Made by a program: the position numbers and the translations under genes. DNA of 64,000 nucleotides from Limosilactobacillus reuteri (GTDB taxonomy: Bacteria > Bacillota > Bacilli > Lactobacillales > Lactobacillaceae). This document shows positions 26,818-49,737 of this stretch, piece after piece. Position 1 is the stretch's first letter. Every line of letters begins with the position of its first letter. Under the pieces are notes generated by a model. The model worked only from the letters and a program-made list of their open reading frames with translations. It was not told the DNA's origin and did not search any database. The stretch is taken from assembly GCF_034259105.1 (NCBI RefSeq), contig NZ_CP139477.1:35298-99297 (forward strand). The letters are read 5' to 3'.

Positions 26818-26864
26818 TAAAGTGCAACACAAAAGTTAGACAAAATTGAATATTTTTAAACTGC
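26818..26864 (-). mobile_element. Detached 47-bp right end of an IS3-family element
   Basis: TAAAGTGCAACACAAAAGTT is the IS3 terminal repeat, closely matching the end at 59283 (TGAAGTGCAAGACAAAAGTT). The piece ends with TAAACTGC at the ISL3 boundary. The rest of the same IS3 lies at 48213-49692 and begins with the same TAAACTGC. Together, counting the octamer once, they make 1519 bp. Confidence 0.85.
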
Positions 26865-28354
26865 GGCTCTTCGTCAAGAAGTACTGATGAGAAAATAAAA
26901 TAATTTTACTAAGCAGCTTGTGCCTGGACTTTGGCATGAGCTGTTTGTTTATTTCTCCAGTTTATTGCAATGTAGGTATTTGGTAATGCAAGGAGGATTC
27001 TAATTCGGAAATTAAAGAAATTACGAAAGCCATAAGCAGTTCGTTTAATAACTTTAATTTTATTGTTAGTTCCTTCAACGGGACCATTTGTATAGGTATC
27101 ATATTTAAAACTATTGTAAATTTCTTGTTTATGGCTGCGAAGAGTATGCTGAACTTTTTGCAGTGCTTGGGGAAGCTGCGTCCATTTAATCGCGAGTAAG
27201 TTTTTTAATTCTTTCTTGCTACGATGAGCAATCACCAGAATTAAGTTTTGATAGTATTCATAAGCTCTTTTTAGTTCATTATCAAAGCTTAGAAGACGAT
27301 GAATGACTTCAACATCGGTTAATTGAGCGTAACTAAAGTTACGCCTTGACCAATAATTATCATATTTAAGCTCATTAGCAGGCGTTAGGAGTAATTTCCA
27401 AAAGTGCTTAAGTGCACGCCATTTATGAGTGCCAGCACCGGCACGATTCATTACTTGGATCCTAATTTTGTTAAATGCACGATATGCTTGAGCAACAATA
27501 TGAAAATGATCAGCGATAATTAAAGCGTGGGGGAAAAGCTCATGAATCAAATGGCGGTAAGGAGTGTACAAGTCAACCGTTACTGTTTGAACTGCTAAGC
27601 GTGCTGAACGGTCATATCGAAGAAAGTATTTTCGCAGATAGCTATTTTTACGTGACAAGATAATATCAAGCGTCCGCTTATTTTCAATATTCATTAGAAT
27701 CATACTCATTCCGCTGGGGGCAAAGCGACCAGACTTGAAATCATCAAAGGCAATATGGCGAGGTAACCAATGATAGTTAGGCTTAAAAAACTGATCAAGA
27801 TTTGTAATGACTCGTCTAATTGTCCAGTCAGAGACATTTAATTCTTTGGCTAAATCACTTTGTGATTCGTTTTTTGTTAGAAGCATCATTGCCCGTTGTT
27901 TTATCGCTAAAGAGATATGATTACGATAATGAATATCTTCAACGGCTGCTAATTTAGTAACTACTTCAGGACAAGAAGAAGCTTTACAGATATATTTTTG
28001 CTTTTTAATCGACCAGATTGTTGGCTTAAAGTGAAGCTCTGATCCCAAACAATTAACTGTTTTATAGCCATTTTTACACATTAAGTGTCCACATTTTGGG
28101 CAATGCATGGGGTAAGTTTGAATAAGATGGACAATGATTTGATTAGGTTGATCTTCAATTGGGTTATCAAAATTCTTTTCATCTAGTTTGAGGTAAGGAT
28201 CTTTAATTCCTAAGATAGTTTTGATAGAATTGTTCATGAAAGATGGTCCTTTCTTAGCGAAGACGGGGTCCAACCATCTTTCGCTTTTTTATTTTAAATT
28301 TTAAACAAATAAAGCCCTGATGTTAAATCCATCAGTACTTAAAATTGTAAAGCC
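26865..28354 (-). mobile_element. ISL3-family element, copy 2 (1490 bp)
   Basis: Same element as at 1548-3040, inverted relative to it and three bases shorter (one Ser codon fewer). The left flank TAAACTGC is not repeated on its right side but is found right of copy 3. The right terminus is slightly altered (GGCTTTACAATT). Confidence 0.9.
26909..28237 (-). CDS. ISL3-family transposase (copy 2)
   Basis: A 442-residue protein, intact, with the zinc ribbon, HTH and DDE motifs described for copy 1. It has one Ser fewer in the KASSCPEV segment and a few substitutions (GYKTVNCLGSEL, LRSHKQE). Start chosen at the ATG preceded by AAGAAAGGA. Confidence 0.92.
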   Translation of the reverse strand: MNNSIKTILGIKDPYLKLDEKNFDNPIEDQPNQIIVHLIQTYPMHCPKCGHLMCKNGYKTVNCLGSELHFKPTIWSIKKQKYICKASSCPEVVTKLAAVEDIHYRNHISLAIKQRAMMLLTKNESQSDLAKELNVSDWTIRRVITNLDQFFKPNYHWLPRHIAFDDFKSGRFAPSGMSMILMNIENKRTLDIILSRKNSYLRKYFLRYDRSARLAVQTVTVDLYTPYRHLIHELFPHALIIADHFHIVAQAYRAFNKIRIQVMNRAGAGTHKWRALKHFWKLLLTPANELKYDNYWSRRNFSYAQLTDVEVIHRLLSFDNELKRAYEYYQNLILVIAHRSKKELKNLLAIKWTQLPQALQKVQHTLRSHKQEIYNSFKYDTYTNGPVEGTNNKIKVIKRTAYGFRNFFNFRIRILLALPNTYIAINWRNKQTAHAKVQAQAA

Positions 28355-28415
28355 TTTTAATGAAGTGCCCTAAAATTGTTAGACATAACCTAACAACTTT
28401 AGGAGCACTTTTTTT

Positions 28416-28775
28416 ATGACCAAATACTCTTCAGAATTCAAAGTTAAATTAGTAAATGAATATTTTGATAGACAAATTTCTATACTTGGATTATCGAAAA
28501 AATATGGAATGCCTAGTAAATCACCGATTTATCGCTGGGTCCATGAAGCGGAAGCAAATGGACTTAATTATTTGATAACCAAAAAATCCCATAAAGAATA
28601 TTCTCAAGATTTCAAATTATCCGTGATAGAATATCATAAACTACATGAGATCAGTCGCCTTGATACTGCAATTTATTTCAAAATATCACCTAGCCAGGTT
28701 AATTCATGGATATATAGATACAATCACTACGGTGTTATTGGATTAAGGCGTCGTCCAGAGGGAGACGACCGTTAA
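28416..28775 (+). CDS. IS3-family OrfA, first part
   Basis: A 119-residue HTH protein (SILGLSKKYGMPSKSPIYRWVHEA and DTAIYFKISPSQVNSWIYRY). Its TAA overlaps the ATG of the next frame as TAATG, suggesting coupled or frameshifted translation. Confidence 0.8.
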   Translation: MTKYSSEFKVKLVNEYFDRQISILGLSKKYGMPSKSPIYRWVHEAEANGLNYLITKKSHKEYSQDFKLSVIEYHKLHEISRLDTAIYFKISPSQVNSWIYRYNHYGVIGLRRRPEGDDR

Positions 28776-28948
28776 TGGCCAAGAAAAAGAAGAAGCAAAC
28801 ACGTTTAAATCCCACAAAAGGAGAGAAATATAAACAAGAAATTCTTGATCTAAAAGCTAAACTACATGATGCCGAAATGGACCGTGATATTTTAAAAGCA
28901 CTAAAGACCTTGCGAGAAAACGATCCCAACTCGAAAAAGCAAAATTAG
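28775..28948 (+). CDS. IS3-family OrfA, coiled-coil part
   Basis: A 57-residue frame with a Lys-rich start and a heptad-like helix (ILDLKAKLHDAEMDRDILKA), equal to the leucine-zipper end of OrfA in IS150-type elements. In related copies this is part of one OrfA protein, so a frameshift may separate the two here. Confidence 0.65.
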   Translation: MAKKKKKQTRLNPTKGEKYKQEILDLKAKLHDAEMDRDILKALKTLRENDPNSKKQN

Positions 28949-28974
28949 TCAAATCATTACTTAAAAAATACAAG

Positions 28975-29791
28975 TTGAACGAGTTATTAATTAAGGTCAA
29001 TCTGCCAAGATCAACTTATTATGAACGCCTTAGTAAAACTGATAAAACAGATAAATACGCTCAATTAAACGAGTTCATTGTTAAAACATATCACGATTCA
29101 AACTCAACCTACGGTTATCGTCGAATCTGGAAAGAATCCCTCAAGGTCGGATTCAAGAATTCTCCAGAAACAATTCGGCATTTAATGACCAAACTTAAAC
29201 TAAAAGTAGTTATTTTTTCAAAACATACATCTGGTTACTGTTCCTATAAAGGTAACCTTGGGAAAATAGCTCCTAATACACTCAAACAGAAATTCACTGA
29301 GACAGAACCATTAAAAGTACTACATACGGATGTAACTCAAATACGTTTGCGTAAAGACAAATGGGGTTATATATCCGCCGTGCTGGACCAGGCCAGCGGC
29401 GAAATATTATCTTATTCAATAAGTTTGAGCCCTAATAAATTACTAATATTAGATACTCTAGAAAAATTGAAGCAAAATATAGTTCCCTCTTTAAAGCCAA
29501 TCCTTCACTCTGATCAAGGATGGCATTATCAACTTAAATATTATCGAGATACCCTAAAAACAATGGGTATTGAACAAAGTATGTCTCGAAAAGGCAATTG
29601 TCACGACAATGCCCCAATTGAGAGCTTCTTTAATCTGCTAAAAAGAGAATGTCTTTATAGGTATAATATCGATGACCTAACCGAATTAAAGAACTTAGTC
29701 GCTAAATATATCAATTGGTACAACAATAAACGTATTTCTTTAAAGAAAAATGGATTGTCCCCTGTAGAATACAGGGAACAATCCATGATTT
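28975..29791 (+). CDS. IS3-family OrfB transposase, interrupted near its 3' end by the intron
   Basis: The frame (TTG start, likely expressed by frameshifting from OrfA) contains the integrase core: VLHTDVTQIRL, ILHSDQGWHYQ and the MSRKGNCHDNAPIESFFNLL block with catalytic Glu. It reads to SPVEYREQSMI at 29791, where the intron starts. After exact removal of the intron the frame continues FKTYKNV-stop, so splicing would restore a normal C-terminus. Confidence 0.85.
29752..29784 (+). repeat. 15-bp hairpin directly upstream of the intron insertion site
   Basis: GGATTGTCCCCTGTA (29752-29766) pairs with TACAGGGAACAATCC (29770-29784) with one mismatch and a GAA loop. The intron begins seven bases further on. 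Confidence 0.75.
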
Positions 29792-31701
29792 GTGCGCCCA
29801 GCATGGGTATTAGCTAGGCGGTGAAAGTCCGCTATGGGCCGTAGTAGTCGGAACCATGAGCTGAGGACAAGGGTGTCCGTTGTGAGACGGAATCTGAAGG
29901 AAGTCTAAGGCAAAATACTGCACCGATGAACAAGAAGTAGCTATAAGGCTGAGGGTAACTGGATAAGGTTGCAAATCAAACTGAAGTCCAATACTACTCG
30001 AAGTTACTCTTAGTAAAGCTAACGGTGACATGGTATGAAAGTTAATATCCTTACCCGGGGAGATCTGGCCTACACGTTTCCGACAAGAGGAATAAGTTTA
30101 ATTTCCACAGAAACAAGCGGTGCAGTGATGCAGTGTTGAGTAAGCCAGAAGTCAGCCGAGGTCATAGTAGTTTGAATAATCAGATGAAGGACTGAACGAC
30201 AATAACTTGTAACTTATATCGGAGGTGTAATCAGGTGCGACAATCGCAGAAAACAGAACAACAAGCTGACCGCTTGTCGAGGATAGGTTTGGAAAACCGA
30301 AAGTACACAAGGGCGCGTAGTACCGGTTATGGTGAAGGTAAAGGTATGAGTGTCACTATCCAAGACTTAGTCTTGGATCGCAATAACCTTAATCAGGCTT
30401 ATTTGCGAGTTAAGAGAAATAAAGGAGCAGCAGGCGTTGACGATATGATAGTTAATGACCTTCTGCCATATCTTAGAGAAAATAAGACGGAACTGATCGC
30501 TAGTTTGCGCGAGGGCAAGTATAAACCAGCCCCAGTCAAACGGGTAGAAATTTCGAAGCCTAATGGTGGAGTAAGAAGACTTGGAATACCAACGGTGGTG
30601 GACCGAATGGTTCAACAAGCTGTAGCCCAAATTCTTACGCCTATCTTTGAGCGTATTTTCTCTGATAATAGCTTTGGCTTCCGTCCCCACCGTGGGGCCC
30701 ATGACGCTATTTCAAAAGTAGTAGATCTTTATAATCAAGGTTATCGAAGAGTTGTCGACTTAGACCTAAAAGCCTATTTTGATAACGTTAATCATGACTT
30801 GATGATTAAGTATCTCCAACAATATATTGATGACCCATGGACACTAAGACTCATTCGTAAGTTTCTAACTAGCGGAGTCTTAGACCATGGGCTTTTCGCT
30901 AAGAGTGAAAAAGGAACCCCACAAGGAGGGCCATTGTCACCACTACTGGCGAACATCTATCTAAATGAGTTGGACGAAGAGTTGACTAGACGTGGTCACC
31001 ACTTTGTGCGCTATGCGGATGATTGTAACATCTATGTTAAAAGTCAACGAGCCGGAGAACGAGTAATGCGAAGCATTACCCAGTTTCTAGAAAAGCGCTT
31101 GAAAGTTAAAGTGAACCCAGATAAAACCAAAGTCGGTAGCCCGCTACGGTTGAAGTTTCTTGGCTTTTCGTTGGGTGTAGACCACAATGGGGCCTACGCC
31201 CGTCCAGCTAAACAATCGCAACAACGAGTAAAGAAAGCACTGAAGTTATTAACTAAACGTAATCGTGGAATATCTCTGACAAGAATGTTTGAAGAAATTC
31301 ATCGAAAAATGCGTGGGTGGCTTCAGTACTACTCAATTGGTAAACTAACTAACTTTATTCAACGCCTTGACAAGTGGTTGAGGGTCCGAATAAGGCAGTA
31401 TATTTGGAAGCAATGGAAAAATTTTAAAACTAAGGTAACTAACTTACATAAGTTGGGGCTGTCCCAGCGTGATGCACATGTCTTCGCTAGTACCCGAAAG
31501 GGCTACTGGCGAACTGCACATAGTAAGACCTTGAGCTATTCTCTAACTAATAGAAAACTGGAACAACTTGGACTTATGAATATGTCCAAGACGCTCCAGT
31601 CAATTCAATGTGATTAAGTTGTCGAACCGCCGTATACGGAACCGTACGTACGGTGGTGTGAGAGGTCGATAATTGAACTAATTAATTATCTCCTACTCGA
31701 T
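29792..31701 (+). mobile_element. Group II intron (about 1.9 kb)
   Basis: The 5' end GTGCGCCCAGCATGGGTATT follows the GUGYG consensus. The 3' part holds a domain V hairpin (AACCGCCGTATACGG, then CCGTACGTACGGTGGT, about 31623-31660) and a domain VI ending CTACTCGAT at 31701. The maturase ORF lies in domain IV. Exons join in frame within orfB. The 3' boundary is set by the AY rule and exon frame and could be off by a base. Confidence 0.85.
30235..31617 (+). CDS. ltrA: Group II intron reverse transcriptase/maturase
   Basis: A 460-residue protein starting with GTG after TCGGAGGTGTAATCAG. Reverse transcriptase blocks include KGAAGVDD, VDLDLKAYFDNVNHDLM, KGTPQGGPLSPLLANIYLNEL and the catalytic FVRYADDCNIYV. 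The C-terminal maturase (X/GIIM) domain follows (WLQYYSIGKLTNFIQRLD, RKGYWRTAHS). No C-terminal H-N-H endonuclease domain is present. It would bind its own intron RNA for splicing and retrohoming. The frame is intact. Confidence 0.94.
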   Translation: MRQSQKTEQQADRLSRIGLENRKYTRARSTGYGEGKGMSVTIQDLVLDRNNLNQAYLRVKRNKGAAGVDDMIVNDLLPYLRENKTELIASLREGKYKPAPVKRVEISKPNGGVRRLGIPTVVDRMVQQAVAQILTPIFERIFSDNSFGFRPHRGAHDAISKVVDLYNQGYRRVVDLDLKAYFDNVNHDLMIKYLQQYIDDPWTLRLIRKFLTSGVLDHGLFAKSEKGTPQGGPLSPLLANIYLNELDEELTRRGHHFVRYADDCNIYVKSQRAGERVMRSITQFLEKRLKVKVNPDKTKVGSPLRLKFLGFSLGVDHNGAYARPAKQSQQRVKKALKLLTKRNRGISLTRMFEEIHRKMRGWLQYYSIGKLTNFIQRLDKWLRVRIRQYIWKQWKNFKTKVTNLHKLGLSQRDAHVFASTRKGYWRTAHSKTLSYSLTNRKLEQLGLMNMSKTLQSIQCD

Positions 31702-31791
31702 TTTAAAACTTATAAAAATGTCTAACTTTTTTATTGCACTTCATCAGGGACCTTCGGTTTAGCAAGTAGCTATCAGCCAGCTACTTAAATT

Positions 31792-31825
31792 CAGTCGATT
31801 TTCACCGGCAAGTTAAAATCGACTG
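31792..31825. repeat. 11-bp perfect hairpin CAGTCGATTTT/AAAATCGACTG
   Basis: Arms 31792-31802 and 31815-31825. A smaller hairpin AAGTAGCT/AGCTACTT lies just upstream (31764-31786). Together with the terminator at 31912 this 220-bp gap between two IS elements holds three stem-loops but no gene. Confidence 0.5.
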
Positions 31826-31911
31826 AACATTGCTCTTAATTTGTAGGTTAATTATACCGCAAACCAGTCCCCAAGGACAAGTTAAGGATAGTTAAAAACA
31901 AATTGAAGTCA

Positions 31912-31953
31912 ATGGACTAAGTAGCTAACTGGAGCTATTTAGTCCATTTTTTG
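31912..31953 (+). terminator. Rho-independent terminator
   Basis: ATGGACTAAGTAGCT pairs with AGCTATTTAGTCCAT with one mismatch, followed by TTTTTT. Confidence 0.75.
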
Positions 31954-31965
31954 TTGTTAGAAATT

Positions 31966-33020
31966 GGTAGATTGTAAAATTTAAGTTGAACATATTAGTG
32001 GACAGAAAAAACCATAAAGGTCTTTAATGGTGTCACCACAACATTCCACTAGAAAGAAGGACCTTTATGGGCACCACTATTTTATCATTTGAAGACCGCG
32101 TTGTCATCGAAACACTTCATCATGAAAAGCACTCACTTCAATATATTGCCGATTATTTAGGCTTTAGTAAAACCACTATCTTTAAGGAGGTTCATCGCTT
32201 AGCTGGTGAGTATCACGCAGTTAAGGCTCAAACTGATCATGAAGTTAAACTTAGTCATCGTGGTCGTAAAACCATCTTAACGACTAACCTAAAGCGATTG
32301 ATTGAAGAAAAAATCAAGATCCAAAAATGGTCAATTGAACAAGTGGCTCATGTAGTTAGAATTGCCTACAAAACCATCTATAACTGGATTGATCAGGGAC
32401 TACTGGATATTAATGTGACTGATTTACCTGACCATGGTATTCGTCGCAAACGAGCTAAAGAAACCCGTGGTACTTTTAGTCATGGACGTTCCATCGAAGA
32501 CCGTCCAGCTGAAATTTCTGATCGTAATACTTCAGGTCACTTCGAAGCTGATACAGTTTTATCTGGAAAACGTAAAGGTCAAGCAGTAGCTACGTTTGTC
32601 GAGCGTAAGAGTCGTCTTACCATCGTTAAACGGCTTAATGGACGAGATAGTACTTCAATGACCAAGGCTATTTTAAAATTGGCTAACCAGTTAGGAGATA
32701 ATCTCAAGACCCTTACTGTTGACCATGGGAAAGAATTCGCCAACTACAATTTGATTGAAGAACAGACCGGTGTTCCGCTGTACTTTGCGCACGCTTATTC
32801 GCCACATGAACGAGGCAGTAATGAAAATCGCAACCGAGTACTACGCCGCTTCATTCCCAAAGGTCAACCGATTGATGAGATTACCGATGATGAATTGATT
32901 CAAATTAACTGGTATTTGAATTCCCGACCACTCAAATGTTTAAATTGGCGAACACCGATTGAGATCTTTTTGCGTAATCTGCGTTACTAAATTTGTTCAA
33001 GTTATTTCTTGCAATCTGCC
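31966..33020 (+). mobile_element. IS30-family element type B, copy C, intact (1055 bp)
   Basis: Complete ends (GGTAGATTGTAAAATTTAAG at 31966; inward from 33020 GGCAGATTGCAAGAAATAAC). It could supply transposase for the defective copies A and B and the fragment at 23680. Confidence 0.88.
32067..32990 (+). CDS. IS30-family transposase type B, intact
   Basis: A 307-residue protein with HTH (SLQYIADYLGFSKTTIFKEV), then GHFEADTVLSGKRKGQAVAT, VDHGKEFANYN and SPHERGSNENRNRVLRRFIP, giving a complete DDE set. AGAAAGAAGGACCTTT precedes the ATG. Nucleotide divergence from copies A and B is considerable, so it is a sister element rather than their direct source. Confidence 0.93.
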   Translation: MGTTILSFEDRVVIETLHHEKHSLQYIADYLGFSKTTIFKEVHRLAGEYHAVKAQTDHEVKLSHRGRKTILTTNLKRLIEEKIKIQKWSIEQVAHVVRIAYKTIYNWIDQGLLDINVTDLPDHGIRRKRAKETRGTFSHGRSIEDRPAEISDRNTSGHFEADTVLSGKRKGQAVATFVERKSRLTIVKRLNGRDSTSMTKAILKLANQLGDNLKTLTVDHGKEFANYNLIEEQTGVPLYFAHAYSPHERGSNENRNRVLRRFIPKGQPIDEITDDELIQINWYLNSRPLKCLNWRTPIEIFLRNLRY

Positions 33021-33073
33021 AAATACATAAAAGATTAACTCTTCTCACGTGGCTAGTGAGAGGAGTTTTTAAT

Positions 33074-33280
33074 TTGGCTGGTAAGAAAGTATTGCAAGAT
33101 AAGGATAATTACGGGAACCAGCGACCTTGGCGGCAGAAAAAATGAGAGAGCTATAAAATGCACGTTTTATAAAGTATTTACAATCTTCGGAACGCCCTAA
33201 AAGAGGGAAACGAGAGCAACGGCCATTACATAAAAGATTGTGAAAATGCAATTGGACACCCCACACGAACGCCTATATAT
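33074..33280 (+). pseudogene. Relic of a rolling-circle plasmid Rep N-terminus
   Basis: After AGAGGAGTTTTTAAT a TTG start opens LAGKKVLQDKDNYGNQRPWR followed by QKK and a stop. KVLQDKxxYGxxRPWRxxK is the characteristic beginning of pC194/pUB110-type (Rep_1) proteins. Shifted frames beyond keep faint similarity (FIKYLQSSER, then a Lys-Arg Cys pattern). The gene is otherwise gone. Confidence 0.5.
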
Positions 33281-33291
33281 AGGTAATACAT

Positions 33292-33430
33292 GAGGGGGGT
33301 GAACTTTTTCACAAAGTCGATATTTTGGCAGCGAGATATATAGGGGGTATCGAATGCTTTACAAATATTGTTGGTTATCTAAGGGGGGGGGGTAGTTGCC
33401 ACGAAGAGAAGAAAGATCTAAGGGGGGGTG
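33292..33430 (+). repeat. Cluster of G-runs, possibly a rolling-circle origin relic
   Basis: GAGGGGGGTG at about 33292, TAGGGGGTAT at 33341, ATCTAAGGGGGG at about 33377 and ATCTAAGGGGGGGT at about 33416. On the complement the third reads AACTACCCCCCCC, which recalls nick regions of pMV158/pE194-type origins (TACTACGACCCCCC). The link to replication is inference. Confidence 0.35.
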
Positions 33431-33799
33431 GTAATCAGTAGGTCAATTCACACACCGCGGAATTTTTTAAGTAGGGTATAGCCCTATATGGCCGTGAGAG
33501 ACGTCCTGAGACGTTTTAATAAATTCAACACAAATTATATGCATTTTATATCAAAACGCACTGAATGAGCTGTGAGAGCGATTAGAGTAGTAGCTAGATA
33601 ATCTGAGCATAATTATGGTTGGATTACTCTTATAAGATTTCTTAAGGGTCTCTGCTTACTAGTTGATTGATAATTATCATATAATTTGGACAATGCTATT
33701 GAACTTTTGTAGGCATCATCAGTTCATGAAGATAAGTCAAGTCACTAGGGTATACCCTATTGGTCTTTTTTGATCCATTATCAATGGCTTTTTAAATTA

Positions 33800-33853
33800 G
33801 GGCCTAGTACTTTGGGAATGGAAATACTTTCCAACACCAAAAATTCTAGACCC
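33800..33853. repeat. 54-bp hairpin element, copy 2
   Basis: The same sequence as 22278-22331, in the same orientation. Confidence 0.7.
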
Positions 33854-33918
33854 GATTATTTTTGTTAAACGAGATTTCTATATATAATGGAATTATAAAT
33901 TTACTGTTGGAGGTTTTT

Positions 33919-34029
33919 ATGACTGATTTATTTGCAGATGGGACTATCTCTATCCATGGAGCTCAAGAAAATAACTTAGTTGATTTTAATGAGTTGGACG
34001 CTAATGTGCATAAATCTCGAGTTGTCTAG
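33919..34029 (+). CDS. Chimeric UvrA-like/AmaP mini-gene (locus 3)
   Basis: A 36-residue ORF identical to 22397-22507, with the same GGAGG. Its presence in both loci shows that the fusion arose before this module was duplicated. Confidence 0.65.
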   Translation: MTDLFADGTISIHGAQENNLVDFNELDANVHKSRVV

Positions 34030-34040
34030 GAGGTGATATC

Positions 34041-34226
34041 GTGACCGAACTCATTAAAGCCTATTTTTGGCCACTAATTGGTGGAATTATGGGATTGCTC
34101 TTAGCGGTCCTTATCATCACTTTTGGATTTTTCAAGACGCTTTTTGTTTTGATTTTTATGGCAATCGGGATTACCGCGGGTTATTATATTCAAAAAACTG
34201 GTATCTTAACAAATGTTTTTAAATAA
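34041..34226 (+). CDS. DUF2273-family small membrane protein (locus 3)
   Basis: 61 residues, identical to the proteins at 21356-21541 and 22519-22704; two transmembrane helices. Confidence 0.88.
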   Translation: MTELIKAYFWPLIGGIMGLLLAVLIITFGFFKTLFVLIFMAIGITAGYYIQKTGILTNVFK

Positions 34227-34253
34227 CTGTTTGAATTATAAGGAGGAAAAATT

Positions 34254-34796
34254 ATGCAGAATGTAACGCCAAGTGAGAAAACAACAACTAACGAAAAGTC
34301 TGGTGTTAAAGGCAATTTAACATTTGATGATAAGGTTATTCAAAAGATCATTGGTATCGCACTTTCTGAAGTAGATGGCTTATTAACCGTAGATGGCGGC
34401 TTTTTCTCAAATATTGCTGAAAAACTAGTTAATACTTCAGATGTCACATCAGGAATTGATGTAGAGGTTGGAAAAAAGCAGGTTGCAGTGGATCTCGACA
34501 TTGTTGCTGAATACGGCATTGATATTTCTAAACTGTATGACAAGATCAAAAATGTTATCGTTCGGGAAGTAAAGAATATGACCGAATTAGAAGTAATTGA
34601 GGTAAATGTGAATGTTGTTGATATCAAGACAAAGGAGCAATATGAAAAAGATTCGACTTCTCTGCAAGATCGCGTGAGCGATGCCACAGACAAAACGAAG
34701 GAAGCCGTCAGTAAGGGCGCAAAGAAATCGAAGGAAAAATTAGGTGACAGCGTTGATAAAGTAACGTCTGACAATAAATCTAGTCGTGTTAACTAA
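34254..34796 (+). CDS. Asp23/Gls24-family envelope stress protein (locus 3)
   Basis: A 180-residue Asp23 protein combining the QVAVDLD variant of locus 2 with the KEKLGDS variant of locus 1. It is therefore a third, slightly different allele. AAGGAGGAAAAATT precedes the ATG. Confidence 0.92.
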   Translation: MQNVTPSEKTTTNEKSGVKGNLTFDDKVIQKIIGIALSEVDGLLTVDGGFFSNIAEKLVNTSDVTSGIDVEVGKKQVAVDLDIVAEYGIDISKLYDKIKNVIVREVKNMTELEVIEVNVNVVDIKTKEQYEKDSTSLQDRVSDATDKTKEAVSKGAKKSKEKLGDSVDKVTSDNKSSRVN

Positions 34797-34810
34797 GGGA
34801 GTGAGTAAAT

Positions 34811-35044
34811 ATGGGACTTATTTGGTCATTAATCGTTGGGGCAATCATTGGGGCCATTGCTGGCGCAGCTGCTATGGGCTGGATTGCAAACATCGTAGCT
34901 GGTTTAATCGGTGCGTGGATTGGTCAAGGGCTTCTTGGCACTTGGGGCCCTTCGTTAGCTGGCATGGCCATTATTCCGTCAATTATAGGCGCAATAGTTG
35001 TTGTAGCAGTAGTTTCTTTCTTTTTAAGTCGTAGCACAAGATAA
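34811..35044 (+). CDS. GlsB/YeaQ-family membrane protein, chimeric (locus 3)
   Basis: A 77-residue protein. Residues 1-55 equal locus 2. From AIIPSIIGAIVVVAVVSFFL onward it differs and instead resembles the lone GlsB at 43220-43468 (AIIPSIIGAVIVVALVSFFV). A crossover in the conserved IPSIIGA codons is the simplest explanation. Confidence 0.85.
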   Translation: MGLIWSLIVGAIIGAIAGAAAMGWIANIVAGLIGAWIGQGLLGTWGPSLAGMAIIPSIIGAIVVVAVVSFFLSRSTR

Positions 35045-39733: not shown

Positions 39734-39736
39734 CTG

Positions 39737-40922: not shown

Positions 40923-40934
40923 TACCTACACCTC

Positions 40935-41585: not shown

Positions 41586-41643
41586 AACTTCTTTTTAAGT
41601 CCGTAGACTAAATTGTTTGTAAGTGCAATAACTAAATCAATTA

Positions 41644-42922
41644 GGTGGATTATAGAATGAAGTTAGCCACCCAGTTGGTGGTAAATAAAAAACGCCATTC
41701 GGCGTGACATCAGGTATCATATTAAGTGAACCAAACCTATATGAAAGGATGTCCGTCAAATGACGCACTTAAATGATACCATGTCTACTAGTTTATTGAC
41801 TACTCATAAAAAGAATGCTCATCTTACTAAAGAAGAACGTGTGATGATTGCGACTTTAAAGTCGCAAGGACTTTCCAATCGCGCAATTGGTCGCCAATTA
41901 GGAGTTAATCATCAAACAATTAATAACGAGCTCAACCGTGGTACGGTCCGCCAACTTCGTCGTCAAAAATCTAATGGTAAGATTTACGAATATTCTTACT
42001 ACATCTATAGTTATGAAGCTGGTCAGGCCACATATCTTGAACATCACCGCCATTCTGGTCGTCGTCGCTTATATTATTCTTCAAAGCAATTTTTACGATT
42101 AGCTGATCAGCTAATGCTTGGTGAGTTTGACGACCACCATTACTCCCCACAAGCGGTTATTTATAAGGCTCGAGATTTAATGAATGATGGCACCCTGATC
42201 CCAAAGTCGGTTGTAACTTTATATCAATGGATTAATGAGGGTGTGCTTCGTACGTCCAATTTAGACCTCTTTGAAAAACCTAAACGTAAGCATCATCGAA
42301 CTCATCCGCAAGCTAAAAGGTGCTTAGGGCCTAATATTGCTCAACGACCTCAAACTGCGGACCAACGGTCCGAAATTGGCCATTGGGAACTAGATACAGT
42401 TCAGGGACAGAAAAACGGTAATGACAGTGTTGTACTAGTAATGACTGATCGCCTTTCACGAGTTAATATCACGAGTAAAATTGCTGGTAAAACTGCGCAT
42501 GCAGTAAATCAGTTCTTTATAAATTTACGCCAGAAAATGGGCACAGATGCTTACTATCGCATCTTTAAGACAATAACCTCTGACAACGGTTCAGAATTTA
42601 GTGAGTTAACACAAGTTCACGATCATGTTTTCTATGCTGATCCGTATTCCCCTTGGGAACGTGGATCCAATGAGATCAATAACCGGTTTCTCCGCAAGGA
42701 GATTACCAAAGGTGAAGCTATAAATAACTATAGTAGTGCTCAGATCATAGCGACTAATGATTGGATGAATCACTATCCACGAGCTATGTTTAATGGACAT
42801 TCGTCAATGGATATCTATCGTAAGGCCTTCTACCAAGAGATATCACAGCTCCATCAACCAATAATCAATTGGTCAGTATTATTTATTTGAGTCCAGTGGC
42901 TAACTTATTCTTGAAATTTAGG
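41644..42922 (+). mobile_element. IS30-family element, copy 2 (1279 bp) with 14-bp target duplication
   Basis: Same 1279-bp element as at 8658-9936 and 61681-62959. It is flanked by AACTAAATCAATTA at 41630-41643 and 42923-42936, a perfect 14-bp direct repeat. Confidence 0.93.
41760..42890 (+). CDS. IS30-family transposase (copy 2)
   Basis: 376 residues, protein identical to copies 1 and 3 (HTH, then HWELDTVQGQ, TSDNGSEFSE, SPWERGSNEINNRFL). Intact and probably functional. Confidence 0.93.
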   Translation: MTHLNDTMSTSLLTTHKKNAHLTKEERVMIATLKSQGLSNRAIGRQLGVNHQTINNELNRGTVRQLRRQKSNGKIYEYSYYIYSYEAGQATYLEHHRHSGRRRLYYSSKQFLRLADQLMLGEFDDHHYSPQAVIYKARDLMNDGTLIPKSVVTLYQWINEGVLRTSNLDLFEKPKRKHHRTHPQAKRCLGPNIAQRPQTADQRSEIGHWELDTVQGQKNGNDSVVLVMTDRLSRVNITSKIAGKTAHAVNQFFINLRQKMGTDAYYRIFKTITSDNGSEFSELTQVHDHVFYADPYSPWERGSNEINNRFLRKEITKGEAINNYSSAQIIATNDWMNHYPRAMFNGHSSMDIYRKAFYQEISQLHQPIINWSVLFI

Positions 42923-43081
42923 AACTAAATCAATTATTCTTTAACGCCTGTAATTGAGAAAAAGGCAAATCAAAAATTTCTATTTTAAAAAGAATGGCAC
43001 AATCGAATAATTTGTATGCAAATATTCAATGGCCTATAATTAGATTTAGAAGGATGCAATTTAGATAATGGAGGATTTGAT

Positions 43082-43213
43082 ATGAAAAGATTTGGACTTT
43101 GGTCAAAAATATCAATTATCATTTCTATATCTCAACTTTTATTAGCCATTTTTAAAGAAATTCAAAACTATAACAAATCTAAAAAACATCCTTCGAAAAA
43201 TAAGAGAGGATGA
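43082..43213 (+). CDS. Small membrane protein preceding a lone GlsB
   Basis: A 43-residue ORF (KRFGLWSKISIIISISQLLL, then a Lys-rich tail) with GGAGGATTTGAT before the ATG. One transmembrane helix. It ends six bases before glsB, whose ribosome-binding site lies in its last codons, so they are coupled. Family not recognised. Confidence 0.6.
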   Translation: MKRFGLWSKISIIISISQLLLAIFKEIQNYNKSKKHPSKNKRG

Positions 43214-43219
43214 TGTTTT

Positions 43220-43468
43220 ATGCATTGGTTATGGGTTTTAATTATTGGTGCCATCATTGGTGCTATTGCTGGAGCAATTACTAGCAAAGGAAAATCAATG
43301 GGGTGGATTGCTAATATTGTTGCCGGATTAGTTGGTTCCTCTATTGGAGAAGCTATACTCGGATCTTGGGGCCCTCAATTAGCCGGAATGGCAATTATTC
43401 CTTCAATTATTGGAGCAGTAATTGTTGTTGCTTTAGTTTCTTTCTTTGTCGGTAAATTAAAGAATTAG
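43220..43468 (+). CDS. GlsB/YeaQ/YmgE-family membrane protein (fourth copy)
   Basis: An 82-residue three-helix protein (WVLIIGAIIGAIAGAITSKG, GWIANIVAGLVGSSIG, IIPSIIGAVIVVALVSFFV). It is more diverged from the module copies, without Asp23 or DUF2273 neighbours, and appears to be an independent locus. Its C-terminal half is the type found in the chimeric locus 3 GlsB. Confidence 0.85.
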   Translation: MHWLWVLIIGAIIGAIAGAITSKGKSMGWIANIVAGLVGSSIGEAILGSWGPQLAGMAIIPSIIGAVIVVALVSFFVGKLKN

Positions 43469-43569
43469 TTTTTAAGCTTCATTTAAGATTCTTATACTAA
43501 ATTATAGATGCTAACTTAGTTAGCACCCCTCGACTTTGTTGTGAGCGAAGCCGATTAATAATATTCCTG

Positions 43570-43989
43570 ACCCACTTAGTTTTAATGGACTCCGCTATTT
43601 ACGCGACTGACTTTGTTATCATCGTCCTCCAGACGCAGCAACGGTCACTGGATGGTGTCGAGACTTTCTTTGAGTACCTCCAGCAGATGTACAACGACTA
43701 CGCAAACGTCGACTTTGATATCCTTGGTGTCCTAGCCGTTCTGCTGAAGAACAACGCAGGCCTCGATAGTCAAATCTTAAAAGACGCGGAAACAGACTTC
43801 GGTAAGGATATGCTCTTTGACCAGATCATTCGACACATGGAGCGACTCAAGCGTTATGACCGGACTGGGATCGCCGAGAAGAGCTTGACCAAGTACGACA
43901 TGCACGATACTCGGCTGCATTATATTTACAACACGCTGACGAAGGAAATCGTCTCACGCTTAAAGGACAAAGGGGTTGAATTGAAATAA
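43570..43989 (+). pseudogene. C-terminal half of a ParA-family ATPase
   Basis: Begins abruptly at about 43570 with LMDSAIYATDFVIIVLQTQQ, which aligns with the middle of the intact ParA at 12288-13100 (ALYACDELVIVLQTQQRSFD). It runs to a normal ParA end. The Walker A and B regions are missing, so it has no ATPase function. GC is higher than in its surroundings, pointing to a different plasmid source. Confidence 0.8.
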
Positions 43990-44363
43990 TGGCCAAGCTT
44001 GAGTTTAACAAGAGCGCTAAGAAAAAATCGCCAAGACCGATTACAGAAACGAAGATCTCCAAGCCCAAAGAGACCTACAACCCCGCGAAGATGACGAAAC
44101 AAGTCGAAGCTGAATTTCAAAAGCAGCCAAAGAAAAAACGCCCAGTCGGACGGCCCAAGAGTGGGCGAAAATCCTACCAGACGGTACGATTGCAGAAGAA
44201 AACGGTATTGAAGATCAATGCCCTGGAGAATGCTCTTGGGGTGCCAACCCAAGACGCCACGGTTGACCAGGCTATTGAACGGGTGCTCAACTCATTGAAC
44301 GCTGATGAGAAGCGATCATATGAGTTGTGGCTCGAAATGTTTGAGAAAAAAGAAGGAAAATAA
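43989..44363 (+). CDS. DUF5388-like partner of the truncated ParA
   Basis: A 124-residue basic protein that overlaps the stop of the ParA fragment by one base. It has a Lys-rich N-terminal arm with PVGRPKSGRKSYQTVRLQKK and a RHH-like C-terminal domain (LKINALENALGVPTQDATVDQAIERVL). It matches the organisation of the intact parA-DUF5388 pair and is probably its counterpart from another replicon, now without a functional ATPase. Confidence 0.7.
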   Translation: MAKLEFNKSAKKKSPRPITETKISKPKETYNPAKMTKQVEAEFQKQPKKKRPVGRPKSGRKSYQTVRLQKKTVLKINALENALGVPTQDATVDQAIERVLNSLNADEKRSYELWLEMFEKKEGK

Positions 44364-44435
44364 CCACTATTACCCCAACCATAGAAATATCTAAAAGATA
44401 ATAAAATAATTACCAAAAAAACGATTGATATAATC

Positions 44436-44726
44436 TTGGATTATTATATTAGTGACCTTTATCGAAACGTATATTATAAGGTCTATCATGAAATGACGGA
44501 AAAGGAACGTCAGTTTGCGCAAGCAATGGTAAAGGTGGGGCATCCCAAGGCGAAAGCACAGGAGATCGGTCATCAAATGGGTCAGAAGCCGGGTTATATT
44601 TCTGTTTATCAGCGCAAGTTAATTGATGATCAGATTATTATGCCGGCTAGTTATGGCTATGTGCAATTTATGTTGCCATTTTTTGACCGGTTTGTTGAGA
44701 AACAAATCATGTTTGATGAATTTTAA
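44436..44726 (+). pseudogene. C-terminal fragment of an AAA-type ATPase
   Basis: A 96-residue frame (EMTEKERQFAQAMVKVGHPK, KPGYISVYQRKLIDDQIIMP, GYVQFMLPFFDRFV) that matches the winged-helix C-terminus of AAA family ATPases common on LAB mobile elements. No nucleotide-binding part is present upstream, so this is a remnant. Confidence 0.65.
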
Positions 44727-44825
44727 GATTCTCGGTATCTTACTGCTAAATCGACTTACTAAAAGCAATCGTGTTAAGTCAACTACTCGTTTTGTTAGCC
44801 AGTGAGCATTCGTAATGGTTGTTTG

Positions 44826-44918
44826 TGTTATACTAAAATTGTTAATTAGGAGAGTGCAAGCAATTCCCTCAACAACAAAGCCCCTCAATTTGCTTTGTTG
44901 CAGATGGGTGCTTTGTTG
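44826..44918 (+). promoter_or_regulatory. Promoter and switch-like hairpins before the sugar transporter
   Basis: TGTTATACT (44826-44834) is an extended -10 element. Downstream CAACAAAGC (44873-44881) can pair either with GCTTTGTTG at 44892-44900 or with an identical GCTTTGTTG at 44910-44918. Two mutually exclusive stems suggest an attenuator or a start-codon-masking structure. A short GTG-initiated reading frame with TTAGGAGA upstream (44855-44929, 24 codons) spans the stems. Confidence 0.45.
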
Positions 44919-44939
44919 TCTTCCCTAAATTTAAAGAGG

Positions 44940-46361
44940 ATGATCCTTATTAGGAGCCATATAATAAGACGATTAAGGAAAATTGCGTTAATTGTGACAT
45001 TAGGTGGATTACTTTTCGGTGTTGATACTGGGGTGATCAATGGGGCGATCCCATATATGGCCTCACCGCAACAACTTGATCTAACCCCTACGGAAGAGGG
45101 ATTAGTTACTTCAGGGATTACGTTAGGTGCAGCGCTCGGCTCCCTAGCTGCCGGTAAATTAGCAGATCGGTATGGGCGTAAACACCTTTTGATTGGACTA
45201 GCAGTACTATTCTTCGCTGGAACTCTTTGTTGCTCAATGGCACCCAATGCAATTTTAATGATCATTTTTCGCATTTTACTTGGCTTAGCGGTTGGCGGTG
45301 CATCGGTAATTGTGCCTGCCTACTTAGCTGAAATTGCGACGGCTTCAACACGTGGTCGATTAGTTACTCAAAATGAACTAATGATTACTGGTGGTCAGCT
45401 ACTCGCCTTTACCGTCAATGCCTTATTAGACTCATGCTTTCCGCAGGTCGGCAATATTTGGCGGTATATGATTGCATTTGGGATGATTCCGTCAATTATG
45501 CTCTTTATTGGTATGTGGCGGGTACCGGAATCGCCCCGCTGGCTGGTCATGAAGGGCAAACAAAAGTCGGCATTAGAAGTATTGCAACGGATTCGGTCCA
45601 GCCATCAACAAAGCTTGCAGGAAATTCAAAGTGTTGATAGCGTCATGAAACGGGATAAAGATATTAAACGCGCCCATTTTCGTGACTTATCCCTTCCCTG
45701 GATGCGCAACTTAGTACTGATTGGGATCGGACTAGGAATTGTGCAACAGTTTGTTGGAATTAACATCATGATGTATTATGGTACCAGCATTTTAATGAAG
45801 GTTGGTTTTGGCCATCGAGCAGCCTTGATTGCTAATATTGGTAATGGATTAACCTCGTTTATTGCTACGGCGGTCGGAATGAAGTTGATGGATACCGTTA
45901 ACCGGCGGCGGATGTTACTAATCGGAATTATCGGAACTAGTAGTTCAATGGCGATGTTGACGTTGGCACTTATTTGGTTAAAGGGAACCATCGTCTTACC
46001 ATACGTAGTTATTTCGATGACGATGTGTTTTCTTGCCTTCTTCCAGTCTTGTGTCTCACCGACTACCTGGGTGTTACTCTCAGAAATCTTCCCGCAAAGC
46101 TTACGGAGCCTTGGCATGGGGATTTCGACGTTTTGTCTCTGGCTTGCTAATTTTATGGTTGGGTTCACCTTCCCAATTATGATGGCTCACTGGGGTGGTG
46201 TTGGAACGTTTGTCTTCTTTATTACCTGCAACATTCTCTCATTGTTCTTTGCTTATAGCTTCGTTCCAGAAACTCAGGGAAAGACCCTCGAGCAAATTCA
46301 AATTGAACTACGGCAACGGACAACGATTAAGCGGCATCATCACCACCACCCCGATGAATAG
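44940..46361 (+). CDS. MFS sugar porter (SP family), intact
   Basis: About 473 residues if read from ATG 44940; the frame opens earlier at TTG 44895 and the true start is uncertain because AAAGAGG is very close to the ATG. It has 12 membrane helices and the sugar porter motifs GGLLFGVDTGVINGAIPYM, GKLADRYGRK, RVPESPRWLVMKGK, QQFVGINIMMYYGTSILMKV and VPETQGKTLEQI. The C-terminus is a His-rich tail (HHHHHP) that might bind metal. It is likely a proton symporter for a sugar or polyol. A bidirectional terminator follows. Confidence 0.9.
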   Translation: MILIRSHIIRRLRKIALIVTLGGLLFGVDTGVINGAIPYMASPQQLDLTPTEEGLVTSGITLGAALGSLAAGKLADRYGRKHLLIGLAVLFFAGTLCCSMAPNAILMIIFRILLGLAVGGASVIVPAYLAEIATASTRGRLVTQNELMITGGQLLAFTVNALLDSCFPQVGNIWRYMIAFGMIPSIMLFIGMWRVPESPRWLVMKGKQKSALEVLQRIRSSHQQSLQEIQSVDSVMKRDKDIKRAHFRDLSLPWMRNLVLIGIGLGIVQQFVGINIMMYYGTSILMKVGFGHRAALIANIGNGLTSFIATAVGMKLMDTVNRRRMLLIGIIGTSSSMAMLTLALIWLKGTIVLPYVVISMTMCFLAFFQSCVSPTTWVLLSEIFPQSLRSLGMGISTFCLWLANFMVGFTFPIMMAHWGGVGTFVFFITCNILSLFFAYSFVPETQGKTLEQIQIELRQRTTIKRHHHHHPDE

Positions 46362-46719
46362 CTATGGTACTAATTGGCATAATAACAAAAATTAGAAAAG
46401 TACGAAAATTTTCTGGAACCTGTAATATTTAGTATCCAATAAGCTTTCTTAAATTAAATATTATGATCTCTTTAAAAATAAGAAGAACACTTTGAATAAT
46501 TGAAAATACCACCCGACAAATATCTGTATTTGGCAGGTGGTACTTTTTAAATATTAAATTGATCATTCGTCCATATAATTATGCAAGATGTCATCTGAGG
46601 CTGATTTAAGGGTTAGGTAATTAATATTATTTGAAAACAGCATGATCATTCGCTTTGTTTTGTAATTGGTAGATTGTAAATTCGTCAGATAAATAAAAGC
46701 AAGCACCTATGTAAAAAAG
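46362..46719. other. Intergenic region between the sugar porter and ISL3 copy 3
   Basis: Contains the terminator at 46507-46542, then a stray IS30 terminus (GGTAGATTGTAAA at 46666-46678) fused to a TCAGATAAATAAAAGCAAGC segment that also occurs at 20193-20212. ISL3 copy 3 cuts that second hairpin. No gene. Confidence 0.6.
46507..46542. terminator. Bidirectional terminator
   Basis: TACCACCCGACAAATA pairs with TATTTGGCAGGTGGTA, with A-rich DNA before and TTTTT after. Confidence 0.75.
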
Positions 46720-48212
46720 GGCTCTTCGTCAAGAAGTACTGATGAGAAAATAAAATAATTTTACTAAGCAGCTTGTGCCTGGACTTTGGCATGAGCTGTT
46801 TGTTTATTTCTCCAGTTTATTGCAATGTAGGTATTTGGTAATGCAAGGAGGATTCTAATTCGGAAATTAAAGAAATTACGAAAGCCATAAGCAGTTCGTT
46901 TAATAACTTTAATTTTATTGTTAGTTCCTTCAACGGGACCATTTGTATAGGTATCATATTTAAAACTATTGTAAATTTCTTGTTTATGTCTGCGAAGAGT
47001 ACGCTGAACTTTTTGCAGTGCTTGGGGAAGCTGCGTCCATTTAATCGCGAGTAAGTTTTTTAATTCTTTCTTACTACGATGAGCAATCACCAGAATTAAG
47101 TTTTGATAGTATTCATAAGCCCTTTTTAGTTCATTATCAAAGCTTAGAAGACGATGAATGACTTCCACATCGGTTAATTGAGCGTAACTAAAGTTACGCC
47201 TTGACCAATAATTATCATATTTAAGCTCATTAGCAGGCGTTAGGAGTAATTTCCAAAAGTGCTTAAGTGCACGCCATTTATGAGTGCCAGCACCGGCACG
47301 ATTCATTACTTGGATCCTAATTTTGTTAAATGCACGATATGCTTGAGCAACAATATGAAAATGATCAGCGATAATTAAAGCGTGGGGGAAAAGCTCATGA
47401 ATCAAATGGCGGTAAGGAGTGTACAAGTCAACCGTTACTGTTTGAACTGCTAAGCGTGCTGAACGGTCATATCGAAGAAAGTATTTTCGCAGATAGCTAT
47501 TTTTACGTGACAAGATAATATCAAGCGTCCGCTTATTTTCAATATTCATTAGAATCATACTCATTCCGCTGGGGGCAAAGCGACCAGACTTGAAATCATC
47601 AAAGGCAATATGGCGAGGTAACCAATGATAGTTAGGCTTAAAAAACTGATCAAGATTTGTAATGACTCGTCTAATTGTCCAGTCAGAGACATTTAATTCT
47701 TTGGCTAAATCACTTTGTGATTCGTTTTTTGTTAGAAGCATCATTGCCCGTTGTTTTATCGCTAAAGAGATATGATTACGATAATGAATATCTTCAACGG
47801 CTGCTAATTTAGTAACTACTTCAGGGCAAGAAGAAGAAGCTTTACAGATATATTTTTGCTTTTTAATCGACCAGATTGTTGGCTTAAAGTGAAGCTCTGG
47901 TCCCAAGCAATTAACTGTTCTATAGCCATTTTTACACATTAAGTGTCCACATTTTGGGCAATGCATGGGGTAAGTTTGAATAAGATGGACAATGATTTGA
48001 TTAGGTTGATCTTCAATTGGGTTATCAAAATTCTTTTCATCTAGTTTGAGGTAAGGATCTTTAATTCCTAAGATAGTTTTGATAGAATTGTTCATGAAAG
48101 ATGGTCCTTTCTTAGCGAAGACGGGGTCCAACCATCTTTCGCTTTTTTATTTTAAATTTTAAACAAATAAAGCACTGATGTTAAATTCATCAGTACTTAA
48201 AATTGTAGAGCC
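46720..48212 (-). mobile_element. ISL3-family element, copy 3 (1493 bp)
   Basis: Full length and in the same orientation as copy 2. Its right flank TAAACTGC (48213-48220) matches the left flank of copy 2 (26857-26864), whereas its left flank TAAAAAAG does not match anything on its right side. Confidence 0.92.
46764..48095 (-). CDS. ISL3-family transposase (copy 3)
   Basis: 443 residues, almost identical to copy 1 (one visible difference is VQRTLRRHKQE for VQHTLRSYKQE). Intact. Start at the ATG following AAGAAAGGA. Confidence 0.92.
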   Translation of the reverse strand: MNNSIKTILGIKDPYLKLDEKNFDNPIEDQPNQIIVHLIQTYPMHCPKCGHLMCKNGYRTVNCLGPELHFKPTIWSIKKQKYICKASSSCPEVVTKLAAVEDIHYRNHISLAIKQRAMMLLTKNESQSDLAKELNVSDWTIRRVITNLDQFFKPNYHWLPRHIAFDDFKSGRFAPSGMSMILMNIENKRTLDIILSRKNSYLRKYFLRYDRSARLAVQTVTVDLYTPYRHLIHELFPHALIIADHFHIVAQAYRAFNKIRIQVMNRAGAGTHKWRALKHFWKLLLTPANELKYDNYWSRRNFSYAQLTDVEVIHRLLSFDNELKRAYEYYQNLILVIAHRSKKELKNLLAIKWTQLPQALQKVQRTLRRHKQEIYNSFKYDTYTNGPVEGTNNKIKVIKRTAYGFRNFFNFRIRILLALPNTYIAINWRNKQTAHAKVQAQAA

Positions 48213-49085
48213 TAAACTGCTAAGGCATGTTCCCTGTATTCGCAGGGAGTCATGCCTTTTGTTTTCTGTGATATTCGTCGATTGTTAAACCAATCGACGT
48301 AATTCTTTGTGATTTCCTTGAATTCTCCAATATCTTTACACTGTGGAAATCCATTAAGACATTCTGTTTTAAGAAGATGAAAGAAGCTTTCAATTGGCGC
48401 ATTACCAAGACAGTTTCCCTTACGAGACATGCTTTGTATAAATTTTTTTCAGAGAGTTTATCGGTATAGTAATTCAATTGATAATGCCAACCTTGATCTG
48501 AATGAATTATTGGTTTTATTCCTTCCGGAATATTTTCTGTGAGTTCATCGAGTGTATCCATAATTAGTTTACTGTTAGGACTATTACTTACTTGAAATGC
48601 TAAAACTTCCTTGCTTCGTCAGTAATAGCTGAAACGTAAGCCCACTTAGTATCGGCCAAGCGTACTTGTGTAACATCGGTATGTAATACTTTGAAAGGTA
48701 CGGTTTCATTAAAATGCTGATGTAGAACGTTACGGGCCACTTTTCCAACTGTACCTTTATAAGATGAATATCTACCATTTCTGTGGCGGTTATAAAGGCT
48801 TACTTGAACATTTAATTCATCCATCAAACGACGCACTACGGCGTCTGATAGATGGATATCTAATTTAATGAGCTCTTCTTGAACGCGACGATAACCGTAG
48901 GTTAGACGTCCGCGATATCTTCCGCTTTCGGCAATTTTTAGTATCTCTACTTTTACATCTTCATACTTATCTACATAATTTTTGATACGTTTACGTTCAT
49001 CATGATAAGTCGCTTTCTTAAGTCCAATGGTCTTAAGAATATCGCCGACTTTATACCGGTTAGATTTCGGAAGAGACTCTTGTTC
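48213..49085 (-). pseudogene. IS3-family OrfB, several frameshifts
   Basis: Pieces in three frames spell the integrase core in order: MRRLMDELNVQVSLYNRHRN, VLHTDVTQVRLADTKWAYVS, IIHSDQGWHYQLNYYT, then KGNCLGNAPIESFFHLLKTE and TPCEYREHALAV. The full gene at 59319-60215 shows what it looked like. At least two single-base indels are needed, so it is dead. Confidence 0.85.
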
Positions 49086-49102
49086 GACCCTGATCTGATC
49101 AA

Positions 49103-49636
49103 CTATTTGTGTTTTCTTTCGTCCTTTGAGGTTCCGAACAGGGTCATTGATTTTTTTAAGATTTCGTTTTCCAATTTTGCATCATATAATTCTTGATTCT
49201 TTTTCGTCAATTCTTCACGAAGTTGATCGATTTCGTTCTTGTTTACTAACTTACGTAATTTCTTCTTATTATGTTTCACTTTGGTTTTTCTGCCTTTCGG
49301 ATGAGGCTTCAAGGCTTCTATACCATACTGATTGAAGGCTGTCCTCCAAAGACTGATTTGACAAGAATTAACATCAAATTTTGCGGATACTTCGGCTAAA
49401 GTTTCATCATGAGTTTGATAGTAGTTTATCACATCAACTTTAAACTCAACTGAGAAACTTCGTTTAACTCTTCTTCGTTTAAGAGCGTCTGCGCCGCTCA
49501 AACGAAAGTTTTGTATCCATCTACCTACTTGTATTCGAGGCAAGTTACGTTTCTTTGAAAGAAGACTGATACTAATGTCACCTTGAAGATATTCACTAAC
49601 GACTTCTGCTTTTAATTCTGAACTATATTTGACCAT
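49103..49636 (-). CDS. IS3-family OrfA
   Basis: A 177-residue protein with two HTH units (ISISLLSKKRNLPRIQVGRW and ETLAEVSAKFDVNSCQISLW) and a C-terminal coiled coil (EIDQLREELTKKNQELYDAK). Intact, unlike its orfB. Confidence 0.8.
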   Translation of the reverse strand: MVKYSSELKAEVVSEYLQGDISISLLSKKRNLPRIQVGRWIQNFRLSGADALKRRRVKRSFSVEFKVDVINYYQTHDETLAEVSAKFDVNSCQISLWRTAFNQYGIEALKPHPKGRKTKVKHNKKKLRKLVNKNEIDQLREELTKKNQELYDAKLENEILKKSMTLFGTSKDERKHK

Positions 49637-49737
49637 AGAAAAAGTGCTCCATAACTGTTAGATTTCTTGTCTAACAATTATGGAGCACTTTAGCAATAAT
49701 CCCGGTCTTTTTGTTTACTTAATTTTCGAAGATCACC

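Follow-up and report, generated by a model that had tools for sequence, protein, structure and literature searches.

A block between two ISL3 elements in Limosilactobacillus reuteri probably entered by ISL3 recombination as a circle with an earlier ISL3 history

Gene blocks bounded by insertion sequences (ISs) in direct repeat tend, in my impression, to pass as composite transposons on the strength of the outer target duplication alone. Such a block was analyzed here in 64,000 nucleotides of Limosilactobacillus reuteri DNA, hereafter the window (bases 35298-99297 of the 99,297-bp contig C2, NZ_CP139477.1; genome G000, 2.27 Mb in three contigs), where two ISL3-family elements and the 18.4 kb between them separate the end of an IS3 element from its body. 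For an ISL3-bounded structure around liaSR in Enterococcus faecium, the authors, where they discuss its origin, favour homologous recombination as perhaps more plausible than transposition (PMC9484755). Homologous recombination is described as yielding the same product as the joining reaction of IS26 in the relevant sections of PMC7885326 and PMC6952201. A comparable process in Burkholderia thailandensis is presented as RecA-dependent in the later of two papers and as transposase-dependent in the earlier, as far as their accounts of the mechanism go (PMC12124856, PMC6350997).

The 18.4-kb block was probably brought to its present site on a DNA circle, through recombination of one ISL3 copy with another, and the sequence suggests that the circle had its own earlier ISL3 history. 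A type I ISL3 (the types are defined below) entered an intact IS3 beside a plasmid uvrA gene, duplicating TAAACTGC, as the uninterrupted site in relatives shows; a type II ISL3 would have resided separately on circular DNA. RecA-type homologous crossing-over within these ISL3s, with the best fit about 355-402 bp in from the left end of each, would have inserted the circle, leaving two reciprocally mosaic ISL3s in direct repeat with the old duplication at their outer sides. Part of the circle (28355-43587) would earlier have been closed on an ISL3 at TTTTAATG, as paired target copies and an empty site indicate, and the remainder (43588-46719) may trace back to a site TAAAAAAG. Between these parts may have stood a third ISL3, since lost along with the 5′ part of a parA gene. 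Recombination between the two present ISL3s could free the segment again. An earlier note, made from the window's letters alone, had also proposed entry by recombination between ISL3 copies, and with the reciprocal mosaic this is the most likely route; the simple single unit that it pictured does not survive a second duplication, TTTTAATG, and a scar inside the segment. It further called the segment recently captured, and nothing dates the capture. The parts of the structure, with one ISL3 insertion that served as a control, are as follows.

26786 to 26817, plus strand: left flank of the split IS3; its first 8 bp are the last 8 bp of uvrA, followed by DNA that adjoins uvrA in relatives (the 79 bp 26786-26864 match L125, L126 and L127 beside an annotated uvrA)
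26818 to 26864, minus strand: 47-bp end of the split IS3 (IS3 'a'); the left 8-bp target copy of site A, TAAACTGC, closes it at 26857-26864
26865 to 28354, minus strand: ISL3 copy 2, 1490 bp, with a 454-amino-acid transposase frame; type I on the left, type II on the right
46720 to 48212, minus strand: ISL3 copy 3, 1493 bp, with a 455-amino-acid transposase frame; type II on the left, type I on the right
48213 to 49692, minus strand: 1480-bp body of IS3 'a'; the right target copy of site A, TAAACTGC, opens it at 48213-48220
1548 to 3040, plus strand: ISL3 copy 1, the control insertion, a type I element in inverted orientation that has a perfect pair of its own, TTATTATT

Thus, the end and the body of IS3 'a' are separated by ISL3, 18.4 kb and ISL3, with TAAACTGC outside each ISL3. 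The coordinates bear out the earlier reading that TAAACTGC lies left of copy 2 only and right of copy 3 only, the two copies being co-oriented. At least 80% of the IS3 'a' body is covered by 33 plasmid records, of which seven were fetched. In 7/7, the same IS3 end stands directly before the body (...TTTT-TAAACTGC-TAAGGCATG) and the sequence runs through TAAACTGC without a break. Thus, 26818-26864 and 48213-49692 belong to one IS3 type, as had been proposed, and no different IS3 body follows the end in the relatives fetched. The IS3 end plus left flank (query 26780-26864) is covered to at least 80% by 47 records. In the three that were fetched (L125, L126 and L127), uvrA is present, and the sequence passes from the left flank through the IS3 end into the body, as far as 100 bp past TAAACTGC, with no ISL3 in between and with 0, 1 and 0 mismatches over the 179 joined bp. 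These uninterrupted sites come from Enterococcus durans, Latilactobacillus sakei and Pediococcus pentosaceus; the relatives found in this study are lactic acid bacteria for the most part. Since the uninterrupted site exists in relatives, it can be taken as established that an ISL3 inserted into the intact IS3 and duplicated 8 bp, TAAACTGC. The earlier note had also observed that 47 + 1480 - 8 equals 1519 bp, the length of another IS3 at 59283-60801. The sum is right, but its match to that element is a coincidence: the 1519-bp IS3 is 66% identical to IS3 'a', its two parts measure 45 and 1482 bp, and seven close relatives of IS3 'a' measure 1523-1527 bp.

The far IS3 end was located in L125 (Enterococcus durans) only among the three plasmids with the uninterrupted site, having been looked for in L126 and L127 and not found there. 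The flank to the right of the split IS3 (49692-49693) is unlike that of L125, which shares the left flank, and unlike that of 7/7 other relatives. Given this differing right flank, IS3 'a' probably took part in further rearrangements too. A second piece of the IS3 'a' end, about 62 bp long, lies at C2:4845-4906 (L043), with AAACTGC uninterrupted and one T fewer ahead of it; it abuts a piece of another IS3, IS3 b, beside the empty site of an ISL3 insertion, B, described below.

Copies 2 and 3 have the same orientation and are 99% alike. The transposase of copy 3 matches DDE_Tnp_ISL3 (PF01610, E 7e-52) as well as PF14690 and PF13542, which places the element in the ISL3 family. Target duplications of this family are 8 bp long. 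Among the 13 ISL3 insertions of the genome, eight own a perfect 8-bp pair, so that ISL3 makes 8-bp duplications here; two have a pair matching at 6/8 positions and one has none. Copies 2 and 3 match only each other for a target pair, and at their outer sides, while their inner flanks are unlike (TTTTAATG at copy 2, TAAAAAAG at copy 3). The insertion without a target duplication is a chromosomal ISL3 (L003, G000:C3:1153650-1155143) flanked by CATTGTCT and TACAAAAA, and another recombination or deletion probably passed through it, given the missing duplication. It was considered as the scar left at a donor site, and this idea was dropped because the flanks CATTGTCT and TACAAAAA fit none of the sites A, B and C. 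Near full-length ISL3 at 90% identity or more occurs, among 301 genomes, in G045 alone besides G000 (92%). Elsewhere, the ISL3 was found in nine matching plasmid records and at 23 loci on genome contigs, the best being 97% identical in amino acids.

The outer TAAACTGC pair cannot separate recombination from the transposition of a composite unit, an alternative that the earlier note does not weigh, because both routes predict it. I therefore turn to the ISL3 copies themselves. The alignment took in 12/13 insertions: the fragmentary insertion L013/L014/L016 does not figure in the haplotype table, and because the short right remnants of the split copies L009-L011 were not entered, these three have no data at columns 1469 and 1490. 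Copy 1 was aligned one base off (1549-3041 instead of 1548-3040), which shifts column numbers by one and leaves the diagnostic sites unaffected. Four of those loci served as the outside comparison of alleles (L045, L046, L074 and L079, with L046 represented by its left part only). In the ten copies other than copies 2 and 3, columns 271 and 1108 are fully associated, with G/G in four (type I) and T/A in six (type II); one of the six, L011, deviates at column 284. Mixing of types at columns 271 and 1108, either way, occurs in 0/10. Copy 2 is type I on its left (271G, 284T) and type II on its right (1108A, 1202T, 1469C, 1490A), and copy 3 is the reverse at all these columns. Thus, the outer parts of the two copies carry type I alleles and the inner parts type II alleles.

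In a swap test of 66 pairs, copies 2 and 3 rank first, their differences falling from 15 to 9 (six removed), and the next best gain is two. The best swap point is at about columns 355-402. L002, L009 and the four outside loci each carry both 355A and 403T, whereas here copy 3 has the former and copy 2 the latter. Once swapped, the outer ISL3 is two differences away from the chromosomal copy L010, and the inner ISL3 seven away from L002. Each copy also has private differences (a 3-bp deletion and columns 1182 and 1189 in copy 2, column 1456 in copy 3). On the alleles they carry, the ISL3 copies favour recombination over transposition of an ISL3-segment-ISL3 unit.

The inner edges of the segment preserve the traces of older insertions, which are listed below.

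28355 to 28362, plus strand: TTTTAATG, the right target copy of ISL3 insertion B; the empty site TTTTAATG-AAGTGCCC is at C2:6605-6598
43580 to 43587, plus strand: TTTTAATG, the left target copy of insertion B, with no ISL3 attached; native plasmids (L131-L133, 3/3 fetched) read TTTTAA-ACTAAGTGGG, and TG fits the end of IS3 b
28355 to 43587, plus strand: circle B piece, 15,233 bp, whose ends would once have been joined at one ISL3; TTTTAATG at both ends, and 43587 joined to 28363 at C2:7198-4906
43587 to 43588, no strand: scar, where target copy B is joined to the interior of parA; the parA relatives L134 and L135 read TTTACT-GACTCC
46712 to 46719, plus strand: TAAAAAAG, the left target copy of insertion C, whose right half is missing; it continues TGCCTGC in L128, in L129 and at window 20219-20233

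The search of the genome itself revealed that 42987-43587 and the start of IS3 b adjoin elsewhere on C2 (7198-4906, reverse strand), where the order is GlsB-CCCACTTAG-TTTTAATG-AAGTGCCC. There is no copy of this ISL3 at that junction; a different ISL3-family element lies deeper in that IS3 b. Since TTTTAATG is paired and its empty site survives on C2, the ends of 28355-43587 appear to have once met at an ISL3. The unlike inner flanks had been entertained as an argument against a simple circle, and this was dropped once the partner of TTTTAATG was found at 43580-43587. Copy 3 marks a third insertion site that has lost its right side, because the sequence past 46719 is TGCCTGC elsewhere. As for the scar, no place covering 80% of the query 43300-44450 was found in 236 matching plasmid records. 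Of the 40 matches listed from the 236, the parA side accounts for 22, and the remaining 18 reach the GlsB side only. Four of the 22 (H172 and H176-H178, 67-92% identity) start at the 8-mer itself (query 281); the one of these four that was fetched, L137, reads TTTTTACAGATTC there, so that the overlap with the 8-mer is probably alignment drift.

The 18.4 kb is, judging from these junctions, not one primary unit: earlier ISL3 events and a deletion have shaped it. A third ISL3 at 43587|43588, lost with the 5′ part of parA, would close the sites A, B and C into one cycle; my best guess for its loss is excision with one-sided resection. A possible, though tentative, reading to which I give somewhat less than an even chance is that the plasmid grew step by step, with ISL3 serving as portable homology. 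In that case two or more circles, each closed on an ISL3 of its own with its own duplication, would have fused via ISL3 and then entered a further ISL3, leaving TAAACTGC, TTTTAATG and TAAAAAAG cyclically permuted, and the third copy would have been excised with a flanking deletion.

The piece 28355-43587 holds IS elements, Asp23 and GlsB stress genes, sugar transporter pieces, a pyruvyl transferase gene and a capsid scaffold-like gene. Further features of the segment, among them a partial partition locus, are the following.

28361 to 31743, plus strand: IS3 b, with a group II intron inside (about 29789-31702; reverse transcriptase frame 30235-31617)
43585 to 43989, plus strand: parA without its 5′ part; matches positions 140-262 of the 297 of the NF041283 (PrgP) profile with 73.5 bits, below the curated cut-off of 400; a full-length relative is in L134
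43989 to 44363, plus strand: DUF5388 gene, the partner of parA in related plasmids
44895 to 46361, plus strand: sugar porter family transporter gene

No replication initiator was recognised among the 18 frames scanned of the segment's 28 frames of at least 80 amino acids; one relative (H166) names the DUF5388 gene replication-associated protein RepC. Because no initiator was recognised, the segment should probably persist mainly in the integrated state, relying on its host molecule. In the search of the genome itself, 28355-31760 and 43000-46719 match in full at the window only; the stretch between them was compared with C2 alone. The plasmid marks on C2 are a ParA-type ATPase (12288-13100), a RepA C-terminal domain (60822-61493) and a weak RepA_N match (13950-15035; 26 bits, below the cut-off of 30). 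Both RepA-like frames lie outside the 18.4-kb segment. They are separate from each other, which suggests that the plasmid was fused from more than one replicon. The group II intron has at least 27 near-full-length copies in the genome (window 29789-31702 and 26 places in C1 and C3; 40 of 55 candidates scored), two of which lie inside ISL3 at the same position, 87/88 (L012/L015 and L013/L016). Three stretches with Asp23-type stress genes (20572-21603, 22215-23473 and 33737-34995) are 97-99% identical; one is inverted and one is inside the segment.

Could two whole ISL3s and the 18.4 kb between them have jumped together into the intact IS3, making the 8-bp duplication? Such a composite transposon accounts equally well for the outer pair and the uninterrupted site, both copies have full-length transposase frames, and the unlike inner flanks suit two independent insertions. 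It does not, however, predict complementary mosaics in exactly the two bounding copies when none of the other ten is mixed at 271/1108, and the unit was not found in other plasmids, as the whole segment reaches 80% coverage at one place in 0/1427 matching plasmid records. I regard this route as unlikely. An ISL3 circle might also have been joined to the resident ISL3 by its transposase in the targeted manner of IS26, branch migration shifting the exchange inward. A single strand transfer followed by migration of a Holliday junction is proposed for IS26 in the mechanistic part of PMC7885326, and such a reaction could, I believe, leave mosaic copies as well. No such ISL3 reaction was met in a non-exhaustive literature search, and the best exchange point lies at least 355 bp from the left end; I give this route hardly any credence.

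Recombination of a circle with the resident ISL3 thus remains the preferred explanation, and several points weigh against it. Column 874 is G in copy 2 and A in 6/6 type II copies, so that one clean crossover fails to explain every site and must be supplemented by a short conversion tract or by a variant outside the sample. The exchange point is blurred, as breaks at 450 to 1100 still remove four differences, and the reconstructed inner ISL3 stays seven columns away from its nearest copy. The types were defined from a small set, the 12 copies aligned from this genome, and the outside copies depart from type II at some sites: column 271 is A or C in 3/4, and column 1490 is G in both copies that reach it. 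Insertion C is seen from one side only, and neither a genome with a single ISL3 in this IS3 nor the free circle was found in the searches. The contig may also be misassembled at the 1.5-kb ISL3 repeats. Two such repeats, 99% alike, are typical misjoin points through which 18.4 kb from a separate circle or another place could be brought in, and misjoins give mosaics too, here as consensus errors. This artefact is nevertheless quite improbable: the genome is in three contigs with an estimated completeness of 100%, both copies carry private differences, and the segment has no recognised replication initiator to maintain it as a separate molecule.

As in the liaSR structure of E. faecium, two ISL3-family elements in direct repeat flank a gene block. 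That structure has the same neighbourhood in all the genomes queried, and its authors, in the portion concerned with its mobility, urge a study of target duplications (PMC9484755); for the present locus, by contrast, there are a duplication, mosaic copies and relatives with the uninterrupted site. The fosB3 circular DNA of E. faecium resembles the proposed circle in tying cargo to an ISL3-family element, but, by the description of its detection, that circle was found experimentally (PMC3812183), whereas the present one is deduced from sequence and its cargo comprises metabolic, stress and IS genes. The translocatable units and cointegrates of IS26 offer the same geometry, in that a molecule carrying a single IS is joined to an IS already resident, giving direct repeats without a new duplication. 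IS26 belongs to the IS6/IS26 family and, in the reactions described, follows a transposase-catalysed route (PMC7885326, PMC6952201); for ISL3 here, homologous recombination is the likelier route. In B. thailandensis, recombination between near-identical ISs likewise moves or duplicates the block between them; as characterized in PMC12124856 and PMC6350997, that region differs in its IS2-like element, its far larger size (208.6 kb) and its chromosomal location.

The locus is thus a further case of a known route, with more evidence for that route than the outer duplication alone gives; it is ordinary in kind and instructive in detail, and its sequence records the steps unusually clearly. Variants inside the ISs argue for recombination over transposition, and an earlier circle can be traced from the target pairs at the inner edges. 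Other IS-bounded blocks could be tested likewise, including the ISL3 block of E. faecium, whose mechanism is left open in the discussion of its origin (PMC9484755).

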